Source: Candidatus Woesearchaeota archaeon (lineage in GTDB: Archaea > Nanobdellota > Nanobdellia > Woesearchaeales > GW2011-AR4). Taken from it: a stretch of DNA of 33,745 bases. Where the stretch lies: NCBI GenBank assembly GCA_016184145.1, contig JACPDF010000012.1, positions 1 through 33,745 of the forward strand, read 5' to 3'. Both the position numbers and the translations under genes were made by a program. The notes below the pieces were generated by a model that saw only the letters and a program-made list of their open reading frames with translations, was not told where the DNA came from and ran no database searches. The first letter of the stretch is position 1; every line of letters begins with the position of its first letter. Below are positions 2,910 through 32,973 of the stretch, piece by piece.

Positions 2910-5900
2910 CTTCTGCCTGATCTCCTGGGGGTTTTTCTTTTTTTTGATATTTTCCTGTGTTTTTTTGCGGATTTCCCAGCGCTTGTAGGCTTTTTTTTAG
3001 TCCTTCCTTCCTTGGCTTTTCGTGATATCAGTTTTAATCTGGCAAAAACATCTTCTTTTTCATGCTTTGGGGGTGCTTTCTCTGCAATATTTTCCTTTGG
3101 TTTTGAAATTAGCTGCTTTTCTGTCTGCTTTTGCCCTTTGCCACCTTCAAAAGCCTCAAACAATTTTTGCCTTTCGCCTTCCTTTTCCTCTTCTCTTCTT
3201 TTGAAAGCCTCTATCGGCTTCTTTGCAGGCGGCAAAGGTCTTCTTTGCATGAACCTTGGCATAATCACTTGAGCAGCTGCTGGTTTTGGCTTGTTTGCAT
3301 AGTTTTTATAATAATAATAGGCCCCATAGCTTCCTCCTATAAGAATCGCTATCAAAACCAATATTAGAATAATTGTGCCAAAAATGCCCTTTGGCTTGCT
3401 TAAAGGATCTAGAGGATCTGTGCCTTTGTCAATCTCTTTTTTATCGCTGGCTCCATCCCCGTCTGTATCCGCATTATTTGGGTCTGTCCTGTAGGTATAT
3501 TCCTGCAGGTTTGTAAGTCCGTCTTTGTCAAAATCTGCTTCAGCGTCTGATGGGTCATTTGGGTCAAGACCTTGCTGCAGCTCCCATTTGTCAGGTATTC
3601 CGTCTTTATCAGTATCTTTTTCTTCTTTTTCAGCCTGCTTTTCCGAGCATTTTCCTGCTGTGCATGCAAGACCAAACTGGCAATCAGAGCCCAAGGAACA
3701 GCTGTTTCCTAACTGGCATTTTACCGGGCATGCCCCTCCGCAGTCTATATCAGTTTCTGTGCCTGTCAGAGATCCATCACTACAAGCCTCGGATTCTGAA
3801 CATGTCCCAAAAGAGCATGAGCCAGATGAGCAGTCAAAATCAATATTGCATTTCCTGCTATTCTCGCATTTTTTGCAATTATTCCCGCCACAGTCTACGT
3901 CTGACTCGTCTTGGTTTTTGACATTATCGGTGCATGTAGCTGCAGTGCATAGATTGTCTTCATTACAAAAACCAGAGGAGCAATCTATGTTTTCAATACA
4001 CATTTTTCCTCCTGCGCACAAATCACATGCGCCGCCACAGTCTATATCAGTTTCCTGCGGATCTTTTATATTGTTGGTGCAGTTAGTGGGCTTCAGGCTT
4101 GGGTCTATTGAAATTCCATCGCTTTCCATGACGCCACTCAAAAGACCCACAATGTTCTTTGCCCTTACCCTGAAGAAATATTTTGATCCTGGCAATAAAT
4201 TAAGACTTGAATTTTTCTTTGTTACCCACACCCATTCGTTCTGTGCAAAGCTTGTTGTCCAGTTGATTACGGTATTTAGTGTTCCGAATTCCTCCAGAGC
4301 GTAATCATAGGAACTTACTCTCGTCTCATTATCATTTCCAAGCCATTTTGCCCTAAGCTGGTCGGTGCGCCATGTGAAATCCGGGTTTTCTGGCAGAGTG
4401 CTTGTGTCATCTACAAGAACCATGAGTGGAGGGGTTGTGTCAATAGTAAATCCTATCATCAATGGTTCGGACCATTCCTGGAGAAACTGGTCTTTGCAAA
4501 TGACGTAATAAGTGTAGCTTCCTGGAGCCAAAACCAATTCTTTGGTGTGGGAATAAGATGGTGGCCCCATAAGGGTGCCTTCGCTCACACTAGGATCGTT
4601 GCTGCTGTACTTGCACTGTGATTTTTTGTTTGTTTCTATTGCGAGAGTTATTGATGTTGTGTTGCTGTAAGCTGGGGTGTGGCTTAATATTTTAATTGGG
4701 AGTGTTATGTCAGAGCTGAAGGCTATCTGTTTAGTGTCAGAAATTAACCCGGATTTGGATTTGCATGCTACAAAATAGGAATATGACCCGTCTTCCTGGA
4801 CTGTTATTTCCTGCATATTTACTCTGCTGAATGAATTATTAACAAAGCCCGGGAATCCCCCTTCCATAAGCCCAAAATCATTTGAATTTGTGCTGTATTT
4901 GCATATTGACTCTTTGTCTGCCTCAACTTTCAATGTGGTTGCCCTTGGGATCTCCACTATAGGATTCGGAAATGCAAATGCGTTATTTATTTTCGGCTTC
5001 TCTGTATCCACACTCAAGTCAAATACCGATATTGTCTGCCCCTGCAAGGGATCGTTGCATCTTACATACAGTTTGTGCACGCTTCTGTCTCCTGAACGGA
5101 TGGCATTGAAAGAGGCTAATTTGTGCTCTGTGCCGCCAGAAGAATCAAATCTGATCATAAAGTCAAATTCTAAATTAGCATCAAGGCTGTGCCTGCACGT
5201 TGCGTCATTGTCAGTTCCGACGACAAGGTCAAAGGTAAAAAGAGGAGCTACTCCAAAAGGAGGGCTTATCAATCTTATTTCCAATGGGTTGGAGTTTACT
5301 ATGAAGCCTGATTCCGCCATCAGGGGATTTCCTGCAAAGTCCCTGGCATTTATGGTTATTTTTTTGTTTCCGTCGGCAATTGTTATTGCTGCCGTATACA
5401 CTATTTTGTCTGTTGTCGTGAAATTGCCAGTCCAGTCCTGCCCGTCTATTGCTATCCTATCTATGTTTACTTTCTTGTTAAATTTTATGGTTATTGTGAC
5501 GGGCAAGGAATCTATCACCGTATTTTCTGCAGGAGTTATAGAGACAATCTTTGGAATTTGATCATCAACTACTATATCTGCCTTGAAGACACTATCCATA
5601 AAAATCCCCTTATCATTCTTGGCATTAAGCTCAAAGATATATTCCCCTGGATTTATCGGCGTCTGGAATGTAAATTCGGCAGTTTTGCCAAGGTTGCTTG
5701 TAAAATCCGGTATTACTGCTATTTCTGTGCCTTTCACTAAAAGGCGCGCGCTTGTTACTATAGCATTTTCAAAAAACTCTACTTTTATAACGGGATTTTT
5801 TGAGTTTGTGTAGTATATATTATCAACAAGTTTTCCGTCGGTTATGTTAAATGTGAAGACAATTGGACCGGAAGAGCCGCTTTGGGCTGTTATCTCTACT

Positions 5901-7924
5901 GTCTTTACCTTGCCTATATTTTTTGCAGGGTCCTGGGGATAATACCTTATGATATTGGTCCCTTGGCCAAGTTCCAAAAGCTTTTCCCCGGTCAGTGTGT
6001 CAAAGAGATATAGGTTGCTTATTATGATGTTATAGCCATTGGTGAATTTCTGGTACGGGTGCCCTGTGCTTCCGCAAGGCTCTTTGCAAAGATATGTCTT
6101 ATAGTCATTTGTTGTTCTCCTTGTAAGGCTTCCCTTGCTGCTTACCTTGTCAAGTATCTCTATTGAGAGTGATTTATACATGCCGCGGTCTATTATTGGG
6201 GCTATAGTTGCATTTGGGGCAAAAACATCCTGCTCGCATTCTGAAGAAGCACAGTCAGCATCATTGTCCGTGTCTGCGTTCTTTTTGCACACTCCGCTAA
6301 AGCTCTGGCATATTTTTAAATTGCATTTATTTGCAACATTATTTATTATATTATTGAACTCATCATGCTGCAAGTTTGTATTGCTGCAGTCTTCGGGGAG
6401 CAGACTAGTGCATGCAATATCGTTGCAGTTTAATGCTTTTTGCCCGTCGTAATAGCATATGCTTGATGGGGTTGAGAGCTTGTCTGCCTTGTCCTTGGTG
6501 CACTGTTCAAAAACTACGCTTGTTGCTTCAGAGCTTTCAAGGCCTTCTGTGCCTGCGCTGTCACACCACTGGCAGTTGTCTGCATTTTGATTGAGGCAAA
6601 CTCCTGTCCCGAGCTCGTCTGATATGGGCTGCCATGCGCAGTTTACCGCATTGCAATTGTTTTTTTCGCAGCTTTCCCTTGACTTGTAGTCATAACATGA
6701 CATCCCCGGATCGCATGCAAAGCAAGAATCAACAGTTGAAATAGACCTGTCATAGAAGCAATACTTATTGTCCTCACAGCTGCTTCTAGTGAAAAACAGC
6801 CCGAACAAATTTGCCTCATCCGGGGTGCAAGAAGATTTTTCAACACAAACAGGGTTGTTGTTTGATATGACACACACCTGGTTGGCATTGCAAACCGTCC
6901 CCTCTATGCCCAAGACATTGGCATCATTGCATAAAAATGCCCTGTTCAGCTTTCCAGAGAAAGTGCTTCTTACATTCTCAAGGAAATTCTGGGTGGAGAA
7001 GCCAGCAAAATTCCTTATAAGATAGTCCTTGTACTGGTTGTAATAGGATTCATGTATGCAGAAATTGTTATTGTCTAACCTGTTCCAGCACTCAAGGTTT
7101 CCAATCGATGCTGTTGCGGTTGCCGTGGGCTTTGCCGTCTGTATGCTGAATGTTGATTCTATTTTGTATGTATAGGTCATATCAAATTTAAGGGAATCAT
7201 CTTCATCAATGAAAATATTTTGAGCCGAAGTTCCGACCAAGGAAAAGTCTGCGCAATTTGTTCCTGCGCACCTATAAATATTATTAGAGACTAAACTGGA
7301 GGCGCATTCATTCTGCCAGCTTAGCCCTATTTTTTTCTGGCCTTTTAAAGGCATAGCTTTCATATTTGTTATTTTTGGTACATAGCTTATGCTGTCGCAA
7401 TCCGCTCCTGAGACCGCAAGGCATGTGCCTCCACTCTCAGCAGTATCAGAGAGGCTTCCACATCCTGAATCAACAGGGAAATCAGCGCATCCATTGCCAT
7501 CATTGTCCGTCATATCATTGCATTGAGGTATATTGCACACTGCATTGCAGTCAGTTTCTCCTGGATGGAATGTTGTACCTGTGCCTGTGCATTGCGCCTG
7601 CGTCTTTATTTGCGAGCTTATATCATAGCAGCAGCATCCCTGCGTGCATTCATTTACCGCATCGCATGACTGCCCTGAAAAAAAGAAATTGCTTACACAA
7701 TTATCGTAATTCTGAGGTCCGGATGAAGAAGTGTCGTAATAGCTTGGGTTAGTGTTTTCCGGCTTGGGGCAGCACTCTGATAGTATAGAAAGCCTTTCTG
7801 TGGAGCATGCTAAAGCGCCTGCGCCAGGGTTTACGCAGCAGCCAACATTACTATCCTGCGCAGCGGTAAGTATAGGAAAAATTATCATCAAAGTTGCAAA
7901 GAGCAAGATTTTGTTGTGTTGCAT
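2906..7924 (-). CDS. Giant Cys-rich surface protein with TSP3 repeats, TM helix and basic tail
   Basis: A 1672-aa protein, probably exported and anchored near its C terminus. Residues 1-22 are a signal peptide. Residues 28-580 are very Cys-rich. Residues about 780-1275 carry several FN3/Ig-like segments, including CKYSSND-type motifs typical of DPANN surface proteins. Residues 1282-1426 hold three tandem Cys repeats, each with the motif DxDCGG. Residues 1437-1503 carry TSP3-type calcium-binding repeats (DTDKDGIPDKWE, DFDKDGLTNLQEY, DTDGDGASDKKE). A single TM helix lies at about 1514-1540. The last ~130 residues are Lys/Arg-rich and predicted cytoplasmic. The start overlaps the upstream stop by one base (TGATG), and the end overlaps the next start by 4 nt. 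The many disulphide candidates suggest a structural or adhesion role. No enzyme domain was recognised. Confidence 0.85.
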   Translation of the reverse strand: MQHNKILLFATLMIIFPILTAAQDSNVGCCVNPGAGALACSTERLSILSECCPKPENTNPSYYDTSSSGPQNYDNCVSNFFFSGQSCDAVNECTQGCCCYDISSQIKTQAQCTGTGTTFHPGETDCNAVCNIPQCNDMTDNDGNGCADFPVDSGCGSLSDTAESGGTCLAVSGADCDSISYVPKITNMKAMPLKGQKKIGLSWQNECASSLVSNNIYRCAGTNCADFSLVGTSAQNIFIDEDDSLKFDMTYTYKIESTFSIQTAKPTATATASIGNLECWNRLDNNNFCIHESYYNQYKDYLIRNFAGFSTQNFLENVRSTFSGKLNRAFLCNDANVLGIEGTVCNANQVCVISNNNPVCVEKSSCTPDEANLFGLFFTRSSCEDNKYCFYDRSISTVDSCFACDPGMSCYDYKSRESCEKNNCNAVNCAWQPISDELGTGVCLNQNADNCQWCDSAGTEGLESSEATSVVFEQCTKDKADKLSTPSSICYYDGQKALNCNDIACTSLLPEDCSNTNLQHDEFNNIINNVANKCNLKICQSFSGVCKKNADTDNDADCASSECEQDVFAPNATIAPIIDRGMYKSLSIEILDKVSSKGSLTRRTTNDYKTYLCKEPCGSTGHPYQKFTNGYNIIISNLYLFDTLTGEKLLELGQGTNIIRYYPQDPAKNIGKVKTVEITAQSGSSGPIVFTFNITDGKLVDNIYYTNSKNPVIKVEFFENAIVTSARLLVKGTEIAVIPDFTSNLGKTAEFTFQTPINPGEYIFELNAKNDKGIFMDSVFKADIVVDDQIPKIVSITPAENTVIDSLPVTITIKFNKKVNIDRIAIDGQDWTGNFTTTDKIVYTAAITIADGNKKITINARDFAGNPLMAESGFIVNSNPLEIRLISPPFGVAPLFTFDLVVGTDNDATCRHSLDANLEFDFMIRFDSSGGTEHKLASFNAIRSGDRSVHKLYVRCNDPLQGQTISVFDLSVDTEKPKINNAFAFPNPIVEIPRATTLKVEADKESICKYSTNSNDFGLMEGGFPGFVNNSFSRVNMQEITVQEDGSYSYFVACKSKSGLISDTKQIAFSSDITLPIKILSHTPAYSNTTSITLAIETNKKSQCKYSSNDPSVSEGTLMGPPSYSHTKELVLAPGSYTYYVICKDQFLQEWSEPLMIGFTIDTTPPLMVLVDDTSTLPENPDFTWRTDQLRAKWLGNDNETRVSSYDYALEEFGTLNTVINWTTSFAQNEWVWVTKKNSSLNLLPGSKYFFRVRAKNIVGLLSGVMESDGISIDPSLKPTNCTNNIKDPQETDIDCGGACDLCAGGKMCIENIDCSSGFCNEDNLCTAATCTDNVKNQDESDVDCGGNNCKKCENSRKCNIDFDCSSGSCSFGTCSESEACSDGSLTGTETDIDCGGACPVKCQLGNSCSLGSDCQFGLACTAGKCSEKQAEKEEKDTDKDGIPDKWELQQGLDPNDPSDAEADFDKDGLTNLQEYTYRTDPNNADTDGDGASDKKEIDKGTDPLDPLSKPKGIFGTIILILVLIAILIGGSYGAYYYYKNYANKPKPAAAQVIMPRFMQRRPLPPAKKPIEAFKRREEEKEGERQKLFEAFEGGKGQKQTEKQLISKPKENIAEKAPPKHEKEDVFARLKLISRKAKEGRTKKKPTSAGKSAKKHRKISKKRKTPRRSGRR

Positions 7925-13536: not shown

Positions 13537-13587
13537 ATTATTTTCTATATTGAAATTTATTGGTTTTTCCATAAGAAACAGAGGAGG
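13537..13587 (+). promoter_or_regulatory. Origin-like motif pair in the rnp3/tbp intergenic region
   Basis: The 19-nt string at 13537-13555 is identical to 25701-25719 in the predicted origin. It is followed by 13564-13587, which starts with the same TTTTTCCATA as the right-hand ORB-like site at 25751 and continues AAGAAACAGAGGAGG. This resembles a degenerate Orc1/Cdc6 binding site and could be a regulatory site for tbp or rnp3. Function is inferred only. Confidence 0.35.
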
Positions 13588-13705: not shown

Positions 13706-14299
13706 ATGGCTAAAAAGGTCAAAGCTAAAGCTGTTAAATTAAGCAAAGGAACGAGGGACATCAAGATTGTGAATATAGTTGTTTCTACATCATTGGAGCA
13801 TGATGTGCCATTAGAAAAAATGGCTGCTACTTTAAGCAATACGGAATACAATCCGGAGCAGTTTCCTGGATTAGTTATAAGGATCAAGGAGCCTAAAACA
13901 TCTGCATTGATTTTTAGTTCCGGTAAAGTTGTGTGCACTGGAGCAAGAACCTTGGATAAAGTCGAGGAAAGCATAAAGAAGATAATAAAAAGTTTGGAAA
14001 AGATAAATGTTAGGATAACAGTCAAGCCAAAAATAAACATCCAGAATATTGTTGCCTCTGGCAGCGTAGGCATGGACCTTAACCTTAATGATTTAGCAAC
14101 AAAACTAAGGAATGTTGAATATGAGCCTGAGCAGTTTCCTGGACTGGTGTATAAGCTGCCAGCCACGAAAAGCAGCCCGCAGGCAACATTTTTGCTCTTT
14201 AGCAATGGCAAGATAGTATGCACAGGAACAAAAAGCGAGAAAGAAGTCCATGCTGCTGTTGATGTCCTGGTTGAGAACCTCAAGAAGGTTAAGGCCTGA
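13706..14299 (+). CDS. tbp: TATA-box binding protein (TBP)
   Basis: A 197-aa general transcription factor that binds the archaeal TATA box and recruits TFB and RNA polymerase. It shows the two-fold TBP repeat: residues ~18-105 and ~109-197, each with an EYxPEQFPGLV segment and an FSxGKxVCTG segment. F53/F70 and F144/F165 are the expected DNA-kinking phenylalanines. A basic N-terminal tip (AKKVKAKAVK) precedes the fold. The start is supported by a strong GGGGGGTG ribosome site 6 nt upstream. It is divergent from rnp3 and followed by mcm, which has its own promoter. Arginine codons are all AGR (5 of 5). Confidence 0.97.
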   Translation: MAKKVKAKAVKLSKGTRDIKIVNIVVSTSLEHDVPLEKMAATLSNTEYNPEQFPGLVIRIKEPKTSALIFSSGKVVCTGARTLDKVEESIKKIIKSLEKINVRITVKPKINIQNIVASGSVGMDLNLNDLATKLRNVEYEPEQFPGLVYKLPATKSSPQATFLLFSNGKIVCTGTKSEKEVHAAVDVLVENLKKVKA

Positions 14300-14360: not shown

Positions 14361-14382
14361 ACAAGAAAATAATGATGTGATT

Positions 14383-16416
14383 ATGCAAGAATTGGTCAAG
14401 GTTGATGCGAACGAGCAGATAAAGAGGTTTCATGAGTTTTTAGAGTCATATTATTATGCGGAAATTATCGAAAATTTAAGGAAAGACCTTAAGTTTGTTG
14501 TTGTTGATTTTGCCGAGCTTTCTAAATTTGATCTGGATTTAGCGAATGAGCTTTTGGAAAATCCTGAGGATACTATAAAAGCTGCGGAAATTGCCCTACA
14601 GCAGTTTGACCTAGAAGAGATAAACGGGGCAAAGGTAAGGTTTTCTAATCTGCCAAAGAACCAGAGAATAATGGTAAGGAACATAAGGAGCAAGCATATA
14701 GGAAAATTAATGGAAGTCGAGGGTATTGTAAGGCAGAAATCCGATGTAAGACCTCAAGTAACGGCTGCAAGGTTTGAATGTCCTGTATGCGGGAATATAA
14801 TTAATGTATTGCAACTGAATGGCAGCTTCAGGGAGCCGAGCAAGTGTGGGTGCGGCAGGAAGGGAAAATTCACTTTGTTGAGCAAAGAATTAGTAGATGC
14901 GCAGGGGATTGTATTGGAGGAAACACCTGAAAGCCTTGAAGGCGGCGAGCAGCCCAAAAGAGCCAATATTTTCCTGAAAGATGATTTGGTGAGCCCGTTA
15001 AGCGAGAGAAAAACAAATCCGGGCAGCAAGATAGATGTTGTTGGCATCGTCAAGGAAGTTCCTATTATACAAAAAACAGGCACAAAATCAACAAGGTTTG
15101 ATTTAATGATAGAGGCAAACTATGTCGGCTCTGTTGAAGAGACGTTCTATGAGATCGACATAACTGAAGAAGAAGAGCAAAAAATCAAGGATATGTCGCA
15201 GGATCCTGATCTATTCAGAAAACTGATTAATTCTGTGGCACCTTCGATTTATGGCTATGAGAAAGTCAAAGAGTCCCTGTTATTGCAGCTTGTTGGCGGC
15301 GTGAGGAAAGTAAGGAGTGACAAGGTTGTAAGCAGGGGGGATATGCACGTGTTGCTTGTTGGCGATCCAGGATCGGGAAAAAGCGCATTGTTAAAGAGAG
15401 TAAGCACCATTTCCCCAAAAGGGAGGTATGTCAGCGGGAGGGGAGTTTCCGGAGCCGGATTAACAGCAACAGTTGTGAGAGATGAATTTTTAAGGGGATG
15501 GAGCCTAGAAGCTGGCGCTTTGGTTTTAGCTTCGAATGGCATTTGCTGCATAGATGAGATGGACAAGATGACAACAGATGACAGGGCTGCTATGCACGAG
15601 GCACTTGAACAGCAAACCGTCAGCATATCGAAGGCAACCATACAGGCCACATTAATTGCAAGGACTACTGTTCTTGCAGCAGCTAATCCAAAATTCGGAA
15701 GGTTTGACCCTTATGGAGTAATTGCTGACCAGATAAATATGCCGCCTACTTTGATAAACAGGTTTGACCTTATATTTCCGATAAAAGACCTTCCTGACCC
15801 GGTAAGGGATGAGAAGCTTGCAAGCCATTTGCTGGTGCTGCACCAGACTCCGGACCTGTATGAGCCAGAACTGTCAACAGAATTTTTAAGGAAATATATT
15901 GCTTATGCAAAGCAAAAAATAGTCCCAAGGCTTAGTGATAGGGCTTTGCAGGAAATAAAGGAATTTTACCTTGCAATGAGAAGCAGCGGAAGCACAGATG
16001 AGGGCATTAAGGCAGTACCGATATCCGCCAGACAGTTGGAAGCGCTGGTAAGACTTGCAGAGGCTTCTGCAAGATTGAGATTAAGCCAGGAAACCACAAG
16101 AGAGGATGCAAGAAGGGCAATCGAACTTCTGGAATACTCCTTAATGCAGATTGGCCTCGACAAGGAAACAGGAAAAATAGATATTGACAGGATTGCTACA
16201 GGCATATCAGCATCACAAAGAAGCCACATACTTGTCGTAAAGGAAATCATAAACGAGCTTGAGAATAAATTAGGAAAAACAATCCCCATAGATGATATTG
16301 TTGAGGAGTCAAAGCTCAAAGGTATTGACGAGGAAAAAGTTGAGGAAGTCATTGAGAAGCTCAAGAGGGTTGGTGAGGTATTTGAACCTCGTAGGGGCTT
16401 TATAAGCAAGATATAA
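14383..16416 (+). CDS. mcm: MCM replicative helicase
   Basis: A 677-aa ATP-driven 3'-5' helicase that unwinds DNA at the fork as a hexamer. The N-terminal domain carries a zinc site (CPVC at 133-136, then CGC at 155-157). The AAA+ core has Walker A GDPGSGKS (327-334), Walker B CCIDEMD (388-394), the MCM-specific NRFDLIF arginine finger (R460), and sensor segments around AANPKFGRFDPYG. The C terminus (about 600-677) is a winged helix ending in GEVFEPRRGF. The length is normal and there is no intein. ATG 14383 is preferred over GTG 14377 because the TATA spacing fits leaderless transcription. It is followed by an OB-fold gene with a similar winged-helix tail. Confidence 0.96.
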   Translation: MQELVKVDANEQIKRFHEFLESYYYAEIIENLRKDLKFVVVDFAELSKFDLDLANELLENPEDTIKAAEIALQQFDLEEINGAKVRFSNLPKNQRIMVRNIRSKHIGKLMEVEGIVRQKSDVRPQVTAARFECPVCGNIINVLQLNGSFREPSKCGCGRKGKFTLLSKELVDAQGIVLEETPESLEGGEQPKRANIFLKDDLVSPLSERKTNPGSKIDVVGIVKEVPIIQKTGTKSTRFDLMIEANYVGSVEETFYEIDITEEEEQKIKDMSQDPDLFRKLINSVAPSIYGYEKVKESLLLQLVGGVRKVRSDKVVSRGDMHVLLVGDPGSGKSALLKRVSTISPKGRYVSGRGVSGAGLTATVVRDEFLRGWSLEAGALVLASNGICCIDEMDKMTTDDRAAMHEALEQQTVSISKATIQATLIARTTVLAAANPKFGRFDPYGVIADQINMPPTLINRFDLIFPIKDLPDPVRDEKLASHLLVLHQTPDLYEPELSTEFLRKYIAYAKQKIVPRLSDRALQEIKEFYLAMRSSGSTDEGIKAVPISARQLEALVRLAEASARLRLSQETTREDARRAIELLEYSLMQIGLDKETGKIDIDRIATGISASQRSHILVVKEIINELENKLGKTIPIDDIVEESKLKGIDEEKVEEVIEKLKRVGEVFEPRRGFISKI

Positions 16417-19246: not shown

Positions 19247-22200
19247 TCAAAACCATCTTCCCAAGCCTTCCTGCTTTTCCTTTTCCTTGCCAAAGAGGCT
19301 TTCTACATTTCTTTTTGTAAGCTCTAAATTCTGTTTAAGGTAGGATGGTAGGTTGTATTTGTCAGCGAGGGATATGGCAGGCTCAAGATATTTTATTATA
19401 GAGCCCTCGGATATTGTAAATATTATTTTGCCGCTGCATTTAAGGCACTTGCCAACCAATGGCGGCCTTCTGTATTTCTCATTGCATGTGCTGCATCTAA
19501 ACTGCTGCATTGAGAATTTTCTTAAGTTCCCCCTTATATCCCTTATAAGATGCTTTTCAATTACCAGCCTTGCGACATCTGACGCGTCCACTGCCCTTAT
19601 TTTATCTGCCAGCTCCATCTGCCCAAGAAGCTTCTCTTCCATTGAGGGAAGTATCTTGTAAGCCGAGCATCTCACTCCTGCGTTAATATTGGAGACATCG
19701 TGCGTAAAGCCAAGGTTGTAATATTGCTCTTCTGCGTCAAGTGCATCAAGCTTCTTGGAAAATTGCTCAATCTCAACTTCCCATGGCTTCTTAAAGTTCA
19801 TGCATGCCTCGTAAAACTCAAGCGGGTAGCGCTTTGCTGTGTCCAGATCAAAAACCATATCATCCACCTCAGCAGGTATTAATTTTGATGTCAAAACCAA
19901 GGGAGCATCTTGTGTTGAGCCCCTTGTGTCAGGCAAATATTGTTTTGAGAAATTCAGCAGAGCATCCATAAGCAGCATTATAGATGCTTCATCGCCATCA
20001 CAATCCCTTCTTGTCGCTGCGTGAAACAAGGGATGAGCGAAAAATCCCTGGGTCTTGGAAAAGCCTATTACCCTTCCCACTACGGCCGCAGAAGTATGAG
20101 GAGCTATTACAGCTACCAAAGCGCCTGCAATGTCTTTTTCTGATTCGAACCTGTAGAATCTGCCCTGCTTGTAAAATTCCTGCAGCATCTCATCAATAAA
20201 AAATGAGATATTCAGGAGTATTTTGTCTGCACCAAGCTCCGGGCTTTCATTGCACGAAGGCAGAATCAAATCCTGCGGCAAAAGCTCAAGAATCTGGTCG
20301 TCATTTTCCAGGTCATTATTATAAATGTCTTTTTTATAGCCGAGCTCTCTTAGTTTCTCTATGGAGGTTTTTATTTCTTTTGGCTTAAAATGTGTTATAG
20401 GAAGCTGGGTCATGTCATACCTTATTGTGCCGTCTTTATTCACACACACATCATATTTTGCCCTGAAGAGTCCTTTTATGAAATGCTCCGGCATATGGTC
20501 CTTGTTGGCTGTTCCCCTCACACCCTTTATCAAATCCGGGTATGTCTTTATGCTGAGTTTTTTAAGGAAATTATCAAACATGGTTTTTATGTCAATCTGC
20601 TGCGCCATGTACGTTGCAGCGCTGCCATGCCTGCATTTTTCATCATTTAGTATGCCGCAGTCGCGGCAATAATACCTCTTATCTGTTTTTTTGCTGCATA
20701 CCTCGCAAATACTAAAGATGGTGTTTTTCCTGCATCTGCTGCAGGAAAATATTGGAAATTCGGCTGTGACTTTGCTTGTCTCAATTGCGCTCTGAAAAGA
20801 CCTTAATCTTCCTCCTTCGTCCCCTATAGGGAAAAGAACGTGAGGGCTTCCAGTAAGCTTCCTCATCTTGGCTTTTTCGGGCCTGCCCATCCTTGCGCCT
20901 ATAAAAATCCCTGATTTGTCCCTTATTTTTATATCAGAAATCTGGTTTATAAGAAATAATGTCCCTTTATTTTCTTCTGGCTTTATAGCGGTAATTTCCT
21001 CCCTGCTGGAATCTAAATTAAATATCTCAGAAATTGTGTAAGCATCGTCTTTTTCAATCACAATGAATTCGTTGTTTGCCACTATGTGCGGCGTTCCCAT
21101 GCTGCTAAATATATTTTTCAGCTTTTCGTCAAAAGGCAATACTAGTTTGGATGCTTCTTCTATGAGCTTTGGCTTCTGGTCTGACAGCTTATTGAAAAGG
21201 TAAAAAAAGTCTTCTGTCTGGATAAGGCTCCAGTGATAAGTGTATTTTGGGTGCAATGGAACGTTAAGTTTTCTTGATATAGTAAATGCCTGTTTCGCGC
21301 TTATGTTTGTTCTTATTGGGTTCTTGAAGAGTTTTTCCAAGAAGTCTTTTTCCATCTCCAGGTGCAGCGCCAATTTTTCAAAGTCTAGCGTGCCAAAGGT
21401 ATCTACAGTCGCTTTTTCAAGTTCCAAAGCCCACCATTCCTCACAATAACCTGGCGGGACTAAGGTATGGGCTCGGTTAAAAAAATCACCATAACTTATG
21501 AGAATGTCCCCTAAGAATAAAATTTCCTTGATTTCTTTTGCGAGAGCTTTTGCAAGTTTTGCGTCATTAAGCCTTATTACGCTGTCGTCATTAAGCCTCA
21601 CAATCGGGCCTTCAATGCTGTCGCATACTGTGATAGCGGTTGCTTTTCCCGGGCGCTCGAGCTTTAACTGGGTTCCTGTGGCTATGTAGCGGTTCAGGGT
21701 GTGCATTGTTGAGGGATGTATTGATGTGGAGGAGTAGCCTGAAACCCTGCTTCTTCCATATCTTAACCTAAATCCGCCGGCTGCCAAGGGATGAGTAAGT
21801 ATCGGCCTTCCCGCAACAAGGTCTTGGATGTATGTATAAACAGGGGCGATTTTGCCTTCTGTTTTATCATCCTGTGATTTTGCCTTTTTTTGTAGAAGTA
21901 GGAAATTTTCAAGAAATGACCAGTTCTTCAAGTCAAAGTCTTCGCTAAGAGTGGTTATTATCTTGTTTATTTTTGATGCCTTTTGCGCCAAGCATTCCCC
22001 CAAGACAAGGCACGGCCCGCTTCTTATCTTGTTTGTCTCTATCCTTTCCAGATCCTTGTAGTTGGATACCTCTATTTTTTCAGAGGAATCTCCGTCTATC
22101 TGCACCGGCAGGTTTCTTACGAGAAATTTTATCTCTTCCTGGCTTGGCAGATACTGCAAGTTTGTGATGCGCTCATGATAGTCATATAGCTCCGTTGCCA

Positions 22201-22765
22201 TCCTTTTGACCTCGTATTCTGTTGGGTCGTAAGGATAATAGCCGGAATTTTTCCTCACATAATCCGCTATCACCACTGATAACGCTCCTGCCGTGCCGCC
22301 TGCGCTTCTTATAGGGCCGGAGTACATCAGGCAGAAATATTCTTTGCCATCTTTCCTTTTTTTTATTTTTAATTCAACAAAGCCTTCCAGCGGGCTTGAG
22401 ACAACACCTAAAGTTAAGTACGCCAAGCCAACCCTTATTCCAGATTCCATTGCCTTTATTTTGCTGTCAAATTTGCAGAATTTTTCGTTAACAACTTCAA
22501 TGGCTATTGAAAGCGCTACCCTAAAGTCCAATTTGCCGAATTTTTTTTCCATATCCTGGATTCTTTTTGCCAAGCCGGAATTTATAATCTCTGGTGTTAA
22601 TGCTCCTATAATCCCCTCTACTCTCTCCGCCATGTTTTTTGCGAGCGGAATGCCTGCCTCATCCTCAGGATCATAGCCGAGTTTTCTTGCCTTGTTTGCT
22701 GTTTTGTAAACCAAATCAACTTTATTTTCTATTTCCCTGAAATACGCTTTGATGTCTGGCACCAT
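19247..22765 (-). CDS. polC: DNA polymerase D large catalytic subunit (DP2)
   Basis: A 1172-aa catalytic subunit of the archaeal replicative polymerase D. The active-site segment RRDCDGDEASIML contains D921 and D923, the metal-binding aspartates of the double-psi beta-barrel core. Zinc sites are seen at CSRC...CEVC...CRDCG (675-703) and CSTC...CLKC (1091-1110). The N-terminal region carries SGPIRSAGGTAGA (149-161). No intein interrupts the active-site region, although inteins are frequent there in archaea. The last eight residues QEGLGRWF form a PCNA-interacting (PIP) box. It starts one nucleotide after the DP1 stop (TAA-A-ATG), so the two subunits are coupled. Confidence 0.96.
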   Translation of the reverse strand: MVPDIKAYFREIENKVDLVYKTANKARKLGYDPEDEAGIPLAKNMAERVEGIIGALTPEIINSGLAKRIQDMEKKFGKLDFRVALSIAIEVVNEKFCKFDSKIKAMESGIRVGLAYLTLGVVSSPLEGFVELKIKKRKDGKEYFCLMYSGPIRSAGGTAGALSVVIADYVRKNSGYYPYDPTEYEVKRMATELYDYHERITNLQYLPSQEEIKFLVRNLPVQIDGDSSEKIEVSNYKDLERIETNKIRSGPCLVLGECLAQKASKINKIITTLSEDFDLKNWSFLENFLLLQKKAKSQDDKTEGKIAPVYTYIQDLVAGRPILTHPLAAGGFRLRYGRSRVSGYSSTSIHPSTMHTLNRYIATGTQLKLERPGKATAITVCDSIEGPIVRLNDDSVIRLNDAKLAKALAKEIKEILFLGDILISYGDFFNRAHTLVPPGYCEEWWALELEKATVDTFGTLDFEKLALHLEMEKDFLEKLFKNPIRTNISAKQAFTISRKLNVPLHPKYTYHWSLIQTEDFFYLFNKLSDQKPKLIEEASKLVLPFDEKLKNIFSSMGTPHIVANNEFIVIEKDDAYTISEIFNLDSSREEITAIKPEENKGTLFLINQISDIKIRDKSGIFIGARMGRPEKAKMRKLTGSPHVLFPIGDEGGRLRSFQSAIETSKVTAEFPIFSCSRCRKNTIFSICEVCSKKTDKRYYCRDCGILNDEKCRHGSAATYMAQQIDIKTMFDNFLKKLSIKTYPDLIKGVRGTANKDHMPEHFIKGLFRAKYDVCVNKDGTIRYDMTQLPITHFKPKEIKTSIEKLRELGYKKDIYNNDLENDDQILELLPQDLILPSCNESPELGADKILLNISFFIDEMLQEFYKQGRFYRFESEKDIAGALVAVIAPHTSAAVVGRVIGFSKTQGFFAHPLFHAATRRDCDGDEASIMLLMDALLNFSKQYLPDTRGSTQDAPLVLTSKLIPAEVDDMVFDLDTAKRYPLEFYEACMNFKKPWEVEIEQFSKKLDALDAEEQYYNLGFTHDVSNINAGVRCSAYKILPSMEEKLLGQMELADKIRAVDASDVARLVIEKHLIRDIRGNLRKFSMQQFRCSTCNEKYRRPPLVGKCLKCSGKIIFTISEGSIIKYLEPAISLADKYNLPSYLKQNLELTKRNVESLFGKEKEKQEGLGRWF

Positions 22766-22766
22766 T

Positions 22767-24347
22767 TTATTTTCCGAACTTCAGCATTTTTACCTGCCTC
22801 GTCTGCAAATTTACAATCGGAACGCGGCTTGGCTCAGGATGATGACCAACTTTCTCCTGGTAAGCCGTCTTGCTCTGCCAGCAGCTTCCTGAAATCAGAG
22901 TAATGTTCCGGTAGTTTGATGCTGCTGCCTTATGAATATGGCCTGAAACAAAAAAATCAGGAACCTTGTTTATGAATAATGGGTCAAGTTTTGAATCTGG
23001 TGTGTATAAAGTTGATGTATGGGCTGGCGCTAGGTGCCTTTTTTGCAGCAAAAATTTCATTATTAAATCCGCGCGGTCATAGCCGCCATTAGTCCTTATT
23101 GATTCAACCTCGGCAACATAGTAATCAAACGAGTAGCCATGGTAAAGCAACACATCAAATCCTGGAAAATTTTTAGATGAGTCTATATTGACCCAGGCTG
23201 GGTTGGATGTCATTATTGCATTTGGCAGGCTGTAAAGCGGCTCTGCAAAATCTTTGTATATTGGAAACTGAGGCTCTGCAACCCTCATTGCGTCGTGGTT
23301 TCCGGGGCAGATGATCAGCTTTATGTGTTTTGGTATGCTACTGAGGAGGCTTGCACATTCATTGTACTGATCTTTTATGTCTTTTATTGTAAGCTCTTTT
23401 TCCTGGTCTGGGTAAACGCCGCAGCCATCGACTAAGTCTCCTATTATGAAGATGTATTTTACTTTTGATGCTATATGCCGCTGGGTTTCGCTGCCAAGAT
23501 CCTGGTTTATCCACCTCAAGAAGCGGTTGAAGTCTTCTCCAAGAAAATACCTTGAGCCAACATGCAGGTCTGAAAGAAAAATAGCATATGATTCATCTTC
23601 TGCCTTCTTTATCTCTTTTGATACTGGTATATCTGGGCAGAAAAGATTGTTTGCAAATATTATATTTTCCCCGTTCACCCCAACAACACCAATAACCTCG
23701 TCAAGGACGATGTCTTTTGCAATCATGAACAGGGAGGGCTTTGTCTTGTTTACAATGACTCTTGTGTATGCTGTGTCATCTTCAATTGCAAGCATATAGT
23801 TACCATTTTTGGTCTGCTGCTTGTCTCTCACCATCCCAACGACTGCTATCTGCTCCCGGTCTTTTTTGTTGAGGAGCCTGCTTATTGAGATTGCGCCCTG
23901 CAGCTCCTGCCTTTGCTTCAGTATTTTCTCAATTGACTTGAACCTGACATTAAAATAGTCTATGAAATCCTGGGCTTCCTTTTTCCCGGGCTCACTTTTG
24001 TAAGAAAAGATGACTTTTATCTTGTCATCCTGCTCCTGGGCTTCTGTTTTTTGCAGCAGAGGCTTAACAATATTTTCATAGCCGGATTTGCCTTTCTTTT
24101 CCAAAATGACATCATATTTTTCCAGCTCCGGCCAGTTTAGTTTTGCTGGCTGGGGCTGGCTTAACAACTCTTTAATCTTTTCGCTGAGGACTGTTATTTC
24201 CTCGTGCCTTGCATTCTCAATTAAACTGCATACTTCTTCAAAGAACTTGTCGTTGTTAAGCTGTTTTAATAGTTCTGAGCTCAGTAAAAGGCCCTTTTTT
24301 AGAAAAAAGCTTACAATATCTTTCTTTTTTGTCTCTAACTCTTGCAT
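22767..24347 (-). CDS. polB: DNA polymerase D small proofreading subunit (DP1)
   Basis: A 526-aa exonuclease subunit of polymerase D. An N-terminal helical region (1-60) and a variable linker lead to an OB-fold (about 160-240) that binds DP2. A Mre11-like phosphodiesterase domain fills 250-490 with all expected metal ligands: D260 and H262 (SDLHVGS), D304 (GDLVDG), N350-H351 (PGNHD), H403, and H470/H472 (SGHIHK). So 3'-5' proofreading should be active. It starts 2 nt after the cdc6 stop and is followed immediately by DP2, giving the cdc6-dp1-dp2 order common in euryarchaea and DPANN. Confidence 0.95.
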   Translation of the reverse strand: MQELETKKKDIVSFFLKKGLLLSSELLKQLNNDKFFEEVCSLIENARHEEITVLSEKIKELLSQPQPAKLNWPELEKYDVILEKKGKSGYENIVKPLLQKTEAQEQDDKIKVIFSYKSEPGKKEAQDFIDYFNVRFKSIEKILKQRQELQGAISISRLLNKKDREQIAVVGMVRDKQQTKNGNYMLAIEDDTAYTRVIVNKTKPSLFMIAKDIVLDEVIGVVGVNGENIIFANNLFCPDIPVSKEIKKAEDESYAIFLSDLHVGSRYFLGEDFNRFLRWINQDLGSETQRHIASKVKYIFIIGDLVDGCGVYPDQEKELTIKDIKDQYNECASLLSSIPKHIKLIICPGNHDAMRVAEPQFPIYKDFAEPLYSLPNAIMTSNPAWVNIDSSKNFPGFDVLLYHGYSFDYYVAEVESIRTNGGYDRADLIMKFLLQKRHLAPAHTSTLYTPDSKLDPLFINKVPDFFVSGHIHKAAASNYRNITLISGSCWQSKTAYQEKVGHHPEPSRVPIVNLQTRQVKMLKFGK

Positions 24348-24349
24348 TT

Positions 24350-25558
24350 TTATGACAAAGACAGTTCATCTTCCAGGATTTTTTTTGTCAGAGGTATTGC
24401 AGAGGAGGAAACAGATAATGAGATATCCCTTGTCCTCCCATACCTTCCTTTTGATATTGTTTTTGTGTTTAATATCCCCATCAACTCAAATTCCCTTATA
24501 ATATCCGAGACCCTTCTTTGGGTCAAAGGCCTTAAGCCTATCTTGAAACATAATCTTTTATAGAAGTCATAAATTTCACCGCTATATGCATAAGGGTTGC
24601 TGGATTTTATTGATATTATGGACAGCAAAACTGCCTGAAATTGCTTGGGCTGCGTCTTGACTACATCAAATATCTTTTCTTTCTCTAACTTGTCTTCTGC
24701 CTCGTCTATGTGCGCAAGGGAGATTGTTTTGTGCCTTGCCCTTTCAGCTATCTCAGCGGCTACCCTTAAAAGCTCGATTGCTTTTCTTGCGTCTCCATGC
24801 TCTCTTGCGGCGTATGCAGCGCATTTCTCTATCACCCCAGTTTCTATTATATTTTCCTTGAATGCCCTTGATGCCCTTTCTTTGAGTATATCTTTCATCT
24901 CCAAAGCGTTGTACGGGGAAAAGAAAACATCTTCTTCTGACAGGGAGGACTTAACCCTTGAATCAACATTTTCCATGAAAGTTGTATTGTTGGAAATGCC
25001 AAGTATTGCTATCTGGGATTTCTTAATATCCTCATTTATCCTTGTGAGGTTGTAGAGAATGTTGTCTCCGGTTTTTTTTATTAACTGGTCTATCTCATCA
25101 AGGACAAGCAGGATGGTGCTGCTTTCCTTTTCAACACTGTCATAGAATATCTTATAGACCTCATCTGTTGGCAAACCCGTTGCTGGTATGCTCCTACCAA
25201 AGAAGCTGGCAAGCTGGGCTAACAGCCTGTATTCTGTGTCTGCCATACGCTTTAGCTTGCAGTTTGCGTAGATTATCTTTAATGGTATTTTTCTTTCTGT
25301 GGCTATCTTGGCCATGTTGTCTGTTATATGTTTTATTGTGAGTGTTTTTCCTGTTCCGGTGTTTCCGTAAACAAATAAGTTGGATGGCTTTTCATGTTTT
25401 AGCGCAGGAGCAAGGATATTTAGTATCTGGTTTACTTCCTTGTCCCTGTGTAAAATGTTTTCGGGTATAAAAGAAGAAAGTAAAACGCTACGGTCAATAA
25501 ATAAGGATTCCCTAACCAGGAATTCCTCAAAGAAGGCAGAAACACTCTTTTTTTCCAT
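24350..25558 (-). CDS. cdc6: Orc1/Cdc6 origin-recognition and helicase-loading ATPase
   Basis: A 402-aa AAA+ protein that binds the replication origin and loads MCM. Walker A is GNTGTGKT (65-72) and Walker B is LVLDEID (151-157); a sensor-2 region is at HGDARKAIELLR. The C-terminal winged helix (about 300-400) includes LRPLTQRRVSDIIREFELMG, which would contact the ORB elements. It is the first gene of an operon with both polymerase D subunits. A palindromic TATA box 27 nt before the ATG and an ORB-like site just upstream of that suggest autoregulation. It is the only Cdc6 in the window. Confidence 0.96.
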   Translation of the reverse strand: MEKKSVSAFFEEFLVRESLFIDRSVLLSSFIPENILHRDKEVNQILNILAPALKHEKPSNLFVYGNTGTGKTLTIKHITDNMAKIATERKIPLKIIYANCKLKRMADTEYRLLAQLASFFGRSIPATGLPTDEVYKIFYDSVEKESSTILLVLDEIDQLIKKTGDNILYNLTRINEDIKKSQIAILGISNNTTFMENVDSRVKSSLSEEDVFFSPYNALEMKDILKERASRAFKENIIETGVIEKCAAYAAREHGDARKAIELLRVAAEIAERARHKTISLAHIDEAEDKLEKEKIFDVVKTQPKQFQAVLLSIISIKSSNPYAYSGEIYDFYKRLCFKIGLRPLTQRRVSDIIREFELMGILNTKTISKGRYGRTRDISLSVSSSAIPLTKKILEDELSLS

Positions 25559-25578
25559 AAAATTCCAGAAGAAATAAA

Positions 25579-25590
25579 GGTATATAAACC
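25579..25590 (-). promoter_or_regulatory. TATA box of cdc6-dp1-dp2
   Basis: GGTATATAAACC, centred about 27 nt before the cdc6 ATG (leaderless). The left ORB-like site starts only 8 nt upstream of it, so Cdc6 binding could repress its own operon. Confidence 0.6.
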
Positions 25591-25597
25591 TTTTGTT

Positions 25598-25775
25598 CCA
25601 CTCCCAGAGGTAGATTTCCTATGGAGATATTTCGTGTTTTATTTTTTGTTGTTGTTTTGTCGTCATTATTTTTTTATTTTATTTTTTCGTTTTATTATTA
25701 ATTATTTTCTATATTGAAAAATAATATATAATAAAACAAAATTATTTTTATTTTTCCATAGGAAGTGGTGGGGTG
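25598..25775. other. Probable replication origin: two inverted ORB-like sites around an AT-rich core
   Basis: The left site (25598-25626) reads on the minus strand CTCCATAGGAAAT... and ends in GGGAGTGG. The right site (25754-25775) reads on the plus strand TTCCATAGGAAGTGGTGGGG and ends TG. Both share TCCATAGGAA, in inverted orientation, with their G-rich ends pointing outward. The ~127 bp between them (25627-25753) is almost only A and T, fitting a DNA unwinding element. The adjacent gene is cdc6. Archaeal origins characteristically have inverted ORBs flanking an AT-rich element next to orc1/cdc6. Prediction only; no skew calculation was possible. Confidence 0.75.
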
Positions 25776-25857: not shown

Positions 25858-26488
25858 ATGTTAGTGGACCAAGAGACTATTAAAAAAATAAAGTCGTTGG
25901 GTTTGAATACCTACGAGGTCAAAATATGGACTGCTTTGCTTTCAAGAGGAGTAAGCACCGCAGGAGAGCTTTCTGACATAGCTAATGTACCAAGATCCAG
26001 ATCATATGATGTTTGTCTTGGAAAATGTCAAGGAGCAGATAGAGAAAAACACAGAAAAGCACATATCACATATCTCTGGCTCTTCTTTTAATAATATGAT
26101 AAATAATCTGCAGGAAGTGTATGAAGGCGCTGTTGGAACCAATGAAGAGGTAGTTGCCGTCCTAAAAGGAAAAAACACACAAAAACATATTAGTTTTTTG
26201 TTCAAAAACACAAAGAAAGAGATTTTGCTCTCATCTTCCAGCGCAAAAGAGCACTTTGATCTTTTGGAAAACATAAAAAATAAACAAAAAAACATTGAGG
26301 TAAGGGTGATTAGCGGCAAAGAACTTTTAGCTGGGAACAAAGGCGCAATACCTAGGGTTTGCATTGTTGATGAAAATGTTGTAATATTCCCTGTTGACGC
26401 AAAAGACACCCATCCTGATTATGATGTTGGCATATGGGTAAAAAACAGGAATATAGCCCGCTTTTTCAAAAAGCTGCTTTCTGATTAA
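25858..26488 (+). pseudogene. TrmB-family transcriptional regulator, frameshifted with missing wing region
   Basis: The first frame encodes a TrmB-type helix-turn-helix (MLVDQETIKKIKSLGLNTYE... VPRSRSYDV, 52 residues, to 26013) and runs on to a stop at 26091 in nonsense. The homologous remainder continues from about 26012 in the +1 frame (FVLENVKEQIEKNTEKHIS ... FFKKLLSD) as the usual coiled coil and effector domain, ending at 26488. Intact relatives normally have about 25-30 more residues (the winged-helix wing) at the join, so the simplest reading is an internal deletion that also shifted the frame, perhaps at a short TTGGAA microhomology. An assembly error is the alternative. The promoter is intact. 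Confidence 0.7.
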
Positions 26489-31962: not shown

Positions 31963-32973
31963 ATGATTTCAAAAAATAACAATCAAAAAATTGAATCGAA
32001 AGCTGAAAAAATGTGTAAATTAATTGAAGCTAATCCTGATTCAGTATTTAATCTTAGAAAAATTTGTCAGATTTACAATTCTAATACCCTAGATAGAATT
32101 GAACCTCTAAGAGCTAGTACTATTATATCAAGGTTATACCAGAAAGGTAAACTTACAAGAACTAAAACTCAATTGAAAGGAGGATATCTTTATTCTTCAA
32201 ATAATAAGGATAAATTAAATTCTATTTATGACAATTATCTGTTACCTTATGATTTTGAAAATAGAGGGGAAATTATCAAACTCCTAACAAAAAATAAATT
32301 TGAAATTTTAAGAACTGACCAGGAGATTAGTAATCATAAAGATATTAGTGCTTTTTTGGCTATGAACGTTGCTTTCCTTATGTGTGATGGCCATCTCAGA
32401 AAAAATCTTCAACAAATTAATTATTTTTTTAATCAAAAAGATGACGCAGAGTTATTCAAGAAATATTTTTTATCAGTTTTTAATGAAGAAAAGCTTTCGC
32501 TCACTCACCATTCTTCTTGTTTTAGGATAGGTATCTGCAATAAAAGTTTAGCTATGCTATTTAATTCTTTAGGAGTTCCTACTGGAAATAAAGTATACAA
32601 GCCTTTTTTAGTTCCGGAGTGGATTTATTATGGGCCAGACAATATAAAACTGACATTTCTGTCTACTATCTATGGTAATGAAGGTTCAAAGCCTCAAGAT
32701 AATAAATTTAGGATTCAGTTTGTATTATCCAAAACTAAAGACTTTGTTCCAAACTTGCTCGAATTCCTGAATCAAGTAAGGTCAATGCTAAACCATTTTG
32801 GAATATCAACTTCCCATATTCAGCTAAGAAAGCAAAAAGGGAGGGCTTTTTGCGGCAGATTTTATATAAAAGGAAAAGATAATTTGATTAAGTTTTATAA
32901 TGAAATTGGATTTTTGTATGCTTCTGAGAAGCAAGAAGTCTTAGAATCACTAGTTCTAAACGGAAAATCTTAA
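31963..32973 (+). CDS. Free-standing LAGLIDADG homing endonuclease-like protein
   Basis: A 336-aa protein. The N-terminal ~85 residues resemble a helix-turn-helix (ASTIISRLYQKGKLTR). Two degenerate LAGLIDADG motifs follow: AFLMCDGHL (137-145, catalytic-type D142) and TFLSTIYGNEGSK (231-243, catalytic-type E240), about 95 residues apart as expected for a single-chain two-repeat enzyme. Both acidic residues are kept, so cleavage activity is possible, but it could also be a DNA-binding regulator or maturase. It is not inside an intein or a recognised intron. The coding region is AT-rich. No Shine-Dalgarno site is visible; the ATG is the first in frame. Confidence 0.7.
   Translation: MISKNNNQKIESKAEKMCKLIEANPDSVFNLRKICQIYNSNTLDRIEPLRASTIISRLYQKGKLTRTKTQLKGGYLYSSNNKDKLNSIYDNYLLPYDFENRGEIIKLLTKNKFEILRTDQEISNHKDISAFLAMNVAFLMCDGHLRKNLQQINYFFNQKDDAELFKKYFLSVFNEEKLSLTHHSSCFRIGICNKSLAMLFNSLGVPTGNKVYKPFLVPEWIYYGPDNIKLTFLSTIYGNEGSKPQDNKFRIQFVLSKTKDFVPNLLEFLNQVRSMLNHFGISTSHIQLRKQKGRAFCGRFYIKGKDNLIKFYNEIGFLYASEKQEVLESLVLNGKS

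Follow-up and report, generated by a model that had tools for sequence, protein, structure and literature searches.

A predicted ORB-type replication origin beside cdc6 in a Woesearchaeales archaeon, with a conserved palindrome in its core and a candidate palindrome-binding protein

The cdc6 locus and the elements upstream of it

The window, i.e. the whole stretch of DNA analysed, is one complete contig (C4, 33,745 bp) of the genome G000 (1.016 Mb in 38 contigs, 97% complete). The closest matches of its Cdc6 were found in Candidatus Woesearchaeota MAGs (92% identical), and among solved structures the nearest are the Sulfolobus Orc1-1 (2qby_A) and the A. pernix Orc1 (2v1u_A). The gene order is RNase P p30 (-), tbp-mcm-OB protein (+), SpoIIM (-), an eIF2-beta type gene (+), DP2-DP1-cdc6 (-), the predicted origin, a broken TrmB-like gene (+), Hjc (-) and a tRNase Z-like gene (-). 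The TrmB-like regulator gene adjoining the origin (25858-26488) is disrupted, with a frameshift or a deletion around 25985-26091; a TrmB-like gene is often seen at the equivalent place in related origins. Elsewhere in the window a LAGLIDADG-type endonuclease gene match (31963-32973) lies near FEN1-like and Trm5-like genes, and a 1672-aa protein with TSP3 and Ig-like matches (2906-7924) is probably a surface protein. The features were the following:

13541-13556, no strand: second palindrome copy, TTTTCTATATTGAAAT, next to the ORB of tbp-mcm, at this place in the closest relatives only
13567-13586, + strand: single ORB TTCCATAAGAAACAGAGGAG upstream of tbp-mcm, 13 of 14 consensus positions
13706-14299, + strand: tbp, TATA-binding protein
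14377-16416, + strand: mcm, replicative helicase
19247-22765, - strand: DP2, DNA polymerase D large subunit
22767-24347, - strand: DP1, DNA polymerase D small subunit
24350-25558, - strand: cdc6/orc1, initiator, 402 aa
25563-25582, + strand: third ORB-like site TTCCAGAAGAAATAAAGGTA, 12 of 14 consensus positions
25579-25588, - strand: predicted cdc6 TATA box TTTATATACC
25598-25626, - strand: left (cdc6-proximal) ORB-like site CTCCATAGGAAATCTACCTC with displaced G-rich tail CTGGGAGTGG, 9 of 14 consensus positions, dyad core exact
25627-25753, no strand: A+T-rich core, putative duplex-unwinding element, 127 bp, 88% A+T
25705-25720, no strand: central palindrome TTTTCTATATTGAAAA, 15 of the 16 letters of TTTTCTATATAGAAAA, midpoint element and candidate protein-binding site
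25754-25773, + strand: right (cdc6-distal) ORB TTCCATAGGAAGTGGTGGGG, G-run outward, 12 of 14 consensus positions, the genome's only full match to TCCATAGGAAnnnnnGGGG

A first-pass annotation of this DNA had described two inverted copies of TCCATAGGAA directly upstream of cdc6-dp1-dp2. Both copies are exact and lie where it had put them, at 25616-25625 (-) and 25755-25764 (+), and the neighbouring genes are indeed cdc6 (- strand), then DP1 and DP2. The 10-mer occurs just 6 times in the genome, and in combination with GGGG at the ORB spacing just once, at the right site. The G-rich tails said to point outward from both copies were canonical at the right site, while the left site has CTC at the canonical place of the G-run and GGGAGTGG a few bp further outward. 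This left-site variant is common to the nearest relatives: in G000, G001, G006 and partly in G004 the proximal ORB has lost its canonical G-run and carries a conserved CTCTGGGAGTGGAA farther out, while the rest of the order retains the G-run. When the inverted pair was compared with the common ORB motif TCCA[CG]T[TG]GAAA[TC][GA]AAGGGGT (PMC4164010), the right site matched in full and the left one in the dyad only, both sites being well formed in most relatives.

The stretch between the two sites has the 127 bp that had been estimated and is the most A+T-rich window of this length in the contig, although at 88% A+T the wording "nearly all A/T" was too strong. The left site had also been said to abut the cdc6 TATA box; this had to be corrected, since the left dyad is ~27 bp away and it is the third ORB-like site that touches the TATA box. 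This third site, absent from the earlier annotation, is situated between the TATA box and the ATG of cdc6 and is directed towards the core, it overlaps the edge of the TATA box and the predicted transcription start, and its position of -11 to -16 from the ATG is kept in most orthologues. The conservation of an ORB over the cdc6 start makes an autoregulation of Cdc6 more likely.

Conservation of the ORB sites and strand skew

The regions upstream of cdc6 orthologues were gathered from about 60 relatives of the order and from sister orders of the class. An ORB with at least 12 of the 14 consensus positions was found upstream of cdc6 in 95% of the 59 order loci and in 94% of the 18 sister-order loci, the background rate being 0.3% in 2000 windows of 600 bp each from four relatives' genomes. 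ORBs in both orientations were present in 64% of the loci and in 0 shuffles. Genome-wide, 41 exact strong ORBs were detected in 59 genomes versus 1 for the reversed control, and the coordinates of the strong ORBs were mostly at cdc6 or upstream of tbp. The conservation next to cdc6 on which the first-pass annotation had staked its origin reading was confirmed across the order and the sister orders.

Near-identical ORBs in direct-repeat arrays were seen away from cdc6 in two genomes (G050:C29:114356-114628, upstream of tbp, and G056:C28:21259-21345). A distant Cdc6 paralogue (G000:C17:54588-55640), ~30% identical, is widespread in the order; it was considered as a second initiator with an ORB origin of its own and was rejected, as neither ORBs nor the palindrome were found upstream of it in the relatives read.

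The ORB beside tbp-mcm is found upstream of tbp in most family members, in a fixed orientation and at a similar distance. The module 13541-13586 could possibly serve the control of tbp-mcm by Cdc6 or be the remnant of an origin. A second origin or its remnant at this place, so that two origins would bracket the replication gene cluster, would agree with the joint occurrence of palindrome and ORB there in the nearest relatives and with the arrangement in G007, where an RNase P p30-like gene, which in the window flanks the tbp-mcm site, adjoins the cdc6 origin. We consider this improbable, since there is one ORB without an inverted partner and the palindrome is absent from this place in most relatives; together with the fixed orientation and the similar distance, these features fit promoter control better.

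Strand asymmetry was followed as GC3 skew corrected for gene orientation, because the plain GC skew mainly reflected gene orientation (r 0.73-0.93). The genome of the window itself is in 38 contigs, and the sampling was done in relatives, at spaced stretches. In the single-contig genome G044 (1.30 Mb; 40 stretches) the skew turned at 781 kb (bootstrap 754-858 kb), with cdc6 at 764 kb and the sign change falling between two sampled stretches, those at 754 kb and 787 kb; the opposite extreme was at 139 kb, roughly half a genome from the turn. In G053, with cdc6 at 394 kb, the turn was located at 409 kb (400-437 kb), an agreement to about 15-40 kb. In G047 there was no sign change, only a step in strength near cdc6, and in the genus neighbour G001 neither a sign change nor anything significant was seen. 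Thus the skew check proposed by the earlier annotation, as run in relatives, came out in favour of the origin in two genomes and without a sign change in two; the turns in relatives support the origin and do not prove it.

The ORBs, the palindrome and the A+T-rich stretch could also be nothing but the regulatory region of cdc6, with Cdc6 as an autorepressor. The overlap of the third ORB with the cdc6 promoter, the single tbp-mcm ORB that exists without an origin layout and the two relatives lacking the skew signal would suit such an explanation; however, an inverted ORB pair whose G-runs point outward and which encloses the most A+T-rich window exceeds the needs of autoregulation, and a skew turn does coincide with cdc6 in G044 and is close to it in G053, so that we regard a locus without any origin as very improbable. 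The site is intergenic, it adjoins an Orc1-1-type initiator gene and an A+T-rich region is present between its ORBs. As judged from these sequence features, 25563-25773 is very likely the chromosomal origin of this Woesearchaeales archaeon, in agreement with the reading of the first-pass annotation, and as far as sequence can tell it is a member of the Orc1/Cdc6-ORB origins of the oriC1 kind. In this respect it is an ordinary Orc1-type origin of an unmapped lineage: no mapped origin of Woesearchaeales or of the sister orders was found in the open literature searched.

The central palindrome and a candidate binding protein

The palindrome, likewise missing from the earlier annotation, is the most conserved element of all. 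Its form is TTTTCTATATAGAAAA, with A/T alternatives and in many cases an extension to ATTATTTTCTATATAGAAAATAAT, and it is conserved better than the ORB. An unbiased word count was led by its pieces (ATATAGAAAATA in 31 of the 59 loci, 0.00 in shuffles), and 35 exact copies of the 16-mer were counted in 59 genomes, compared with none of its reversed control. In 34 well-formed origins the relative position of the palindrome between the two ORBs was 0.53 (sd 0.11), and it stays midway although the two ORBs may be as little as about 100 bp or more than 600 bp apart; the window's own copy is at 0.34 of the way from ORB to ORB. This conserved palindrome has apparently not been described so far.

Being A+T-rich, symmetric and located within the unwinding core, the palindrome might act as a DNA structure, a cruciform or an easily melted hairpin, instead of a protein site. 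This is hardly credible, since it is the letters that are conserved and not the symmetry alone, a reversed palindrome of equal composition is absent, asymmetric variants occur, and the presence of the element follows one gene family.

The other copies of the palindrome are numerous, and most of them are intergenic. Since it has many copies outside origins, a role at the origin cannot be its only role. In many family members it is found upstream of gyrA (behind scpB), gyrA having been named from its translated start. Between these two genes it precedes the start of gyrA by about 100 bp, both in the genome of the window (L104, G000:C8:38900-41300, contig position 40064) and in most of the related genomes read (loci L313, L323 and L334). 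A function as scpB promoter site was rejected because the palindrome is downstream of scpB and upstream of gyrA, and a generic promoter motif was rejected on the basis of 4 sites in 1.2 Mb of background. In the complete relative G044 three palindromes are present within 2.7 kb upstream of cdc6 (L255, G044:C1:760276-765700; positions 680, 2093 and 3422), of which the last one alone lies between the ORBs.

By following these other copies a candidate for the binding protein was found. In the genome of the window it is encoded at G000:C37:51578-51892 (-), has 105 aa, and is preceded by the palindrome 39 bp before its start. Among 30 relatives from the family and the order, 29 had a copy with 12-15 of the 16 letters at -34 to -53 of this gene, mostly just upstream of a TATA-like box, and the distance of exactly -39 recurs in several other genomes, including those of sister orders. 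A palindrome in the promoter of the gene itself is typical of DNA-binding proteins that regulate their own expression. The family of ~105 aa has a winged-helix-like sequence pattern; it had no match in Pfam and NCBIfam and no significant match in the PDB. Small size, winged-helix-like character and the pattern GYEIYK...RSIYYHLKKG...wing recall the PadR-type regulators; the only regulator-type PDB matches, which include PadR (6abt, 6abq) and PerR, are weak and not significant (E 0.16 and 0.22), and with neither a Pfam nor an NCBIfam match the assignment to the PadR family was rejected.

In the sister orders, as read from the coordinates, the winged-helix-like gene shares the strand of cdc6 and is immediately upstream of it, so that the origin lies between the two; the gaps from this gene to cdc6 are 0.4-2.0 kb in 21 sister-order genomes of 13 families. 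It was found 3.3 kb downstream of cdc6 in two genomes and on a different contig in four, and it is not adjacent to cdc6 in one divergent family (f40). The origin palindrome was present in 20 of the 22 genomes having the gene versus 0 of the 17 lacking it, a co-occurrence that rests on few independent events as the absence of the gene is clustered on the Cdc6 tree. Among 20 origins collected after the idea had been formed, the palindrome was present in all 11 from genomes having the gene and in none of the 9 from genomes lacking it, two of the latter nine upstream regions being short. In three MAGs of the order (G042, G046 and G049; 91, 90 and 78% complete) the palindrome was present and the gene was not detected. 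Taken as a whole, these data make it quite likely that the ~105-aa winged-helix-like protein is the partner that binds the palindrome.

Next to a genuine origin, the palindrome could simply be the operator of an ordinary transcription factor, winged-helix or other, that acts on cdc6 and other genes and has no replication role. That the winged-helix gene and gyrA, and in close relatives tbp-mcm too, have the palindrome in their promoters, and that most other copies are intergenic, would be expected from such a factor. At the origin, however, the palindrome is situated well away from the cdc6 TATA box and remains at the midpoint while the ORB distance varies, and in the sister orders the winged-helix gene is encoded beside the origin, which together render a pure operator rather unlikely. 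The sites at gyrA and tbp-mcm would make the protein a regulator, or one of the nucleoid type, that has a role at the origin as well, similar in this to UBP.

Proposed mechanism and comparison with known systems

The explanation that we find likely overall, from sequence and its conservation, is an ORB origin with a midpoint palindrome bound by a self-controlling winged-helix-like protein. Cdc6 would bind the two inverted ORBs and bring MCM to the A+T-rich core between them. By the third ORB over the cdc6 start Cdc6 probably represses its own operon, and the single ORB upstream of tbp-mcm may extend its control; the two sites point to a second role of Cdc6, in the regulation of genes for replication and transcription. 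The small winged-helix-like protein would bind the core palindrome and also control its own gene, and the protein-bound palindrome might serve to mark the middle between two MCM hexamers, or to hold it, by analogy with the Sulfolobus ucm/UBP. This MCM-spacer role is a doubtful part of the model. Nearly an even chance, and not quite that, is given to the wider proposal of a class-wide DPANN origin system, in which the ~105-aa winged-helix-like family, so far undescribed, would bind the midpoint palindrome, control its own gene, link gyrase expression to replication and act as an independently evolved counterpart of UBP in the loading or separation of MCM.

The 2025 paper in which UBP was found at Sulfolobus origins closed with the question of whether analogous origin proteins exist in archaea that are more divergent (PMC12141716). 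A concrete candidate motif and gene family is offered here for a large uncultured lineage, and predicted origins are supplied for dozens of Woesearchaeales and sister-order genomes.

Pyrococcus abyssi, according to the portion of the report cited here, has a single oriC, located by skew and experimentally confirmed, which like the present one is beside cdc6 and other replication genes; that portion mentions neither a central palindrome nor a linked small DNA-binding protein (PMC4010727). In the oriC1 of Haloarcula hispanica, too, the ORBs are two in number, inverted and provided with G-strings, and a further inverted repeat within them acts as an enhancer, but its repeat is G-rich and directly inside each ORB, while here one A/T palindrome is found at the midpoint (PMC3936714). 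The Sulfolobus oriC1 shares inverted ORBs around an A+T-rich element and a sequence-specific motif midway, and the 11-bp ucm motif, like the palindrome, has many other chromosomal sites, mostly intergenic; over 300 sites are given for UBP, which is described as confined to Desulfurococcales and Sulfolobales (PMC12141716). Both proteins are small, UBP having 111 aa (PMC12141716) and the present candidate about 105 aa. Mutation of ucm in Sulfolobus was shown to prevent firing of the origin at normal cdc6 expression. UBP, however, is a beta-hairpin saddle protein bound to DNA as a monomer, whereas the candidate is winged-helix-like and its site palindromic, and binding was shown for UBP and is predicted for the candidate. 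The ucm-like geometry, a conserved motif midway between the ORBs inside the unwinding element, is seen here as well. By this analogy, and claiming no membership of ucm/UBP, we infer that the origin works like the Sulfolobus oriC1 with ucm/UBP by means of a different protein.
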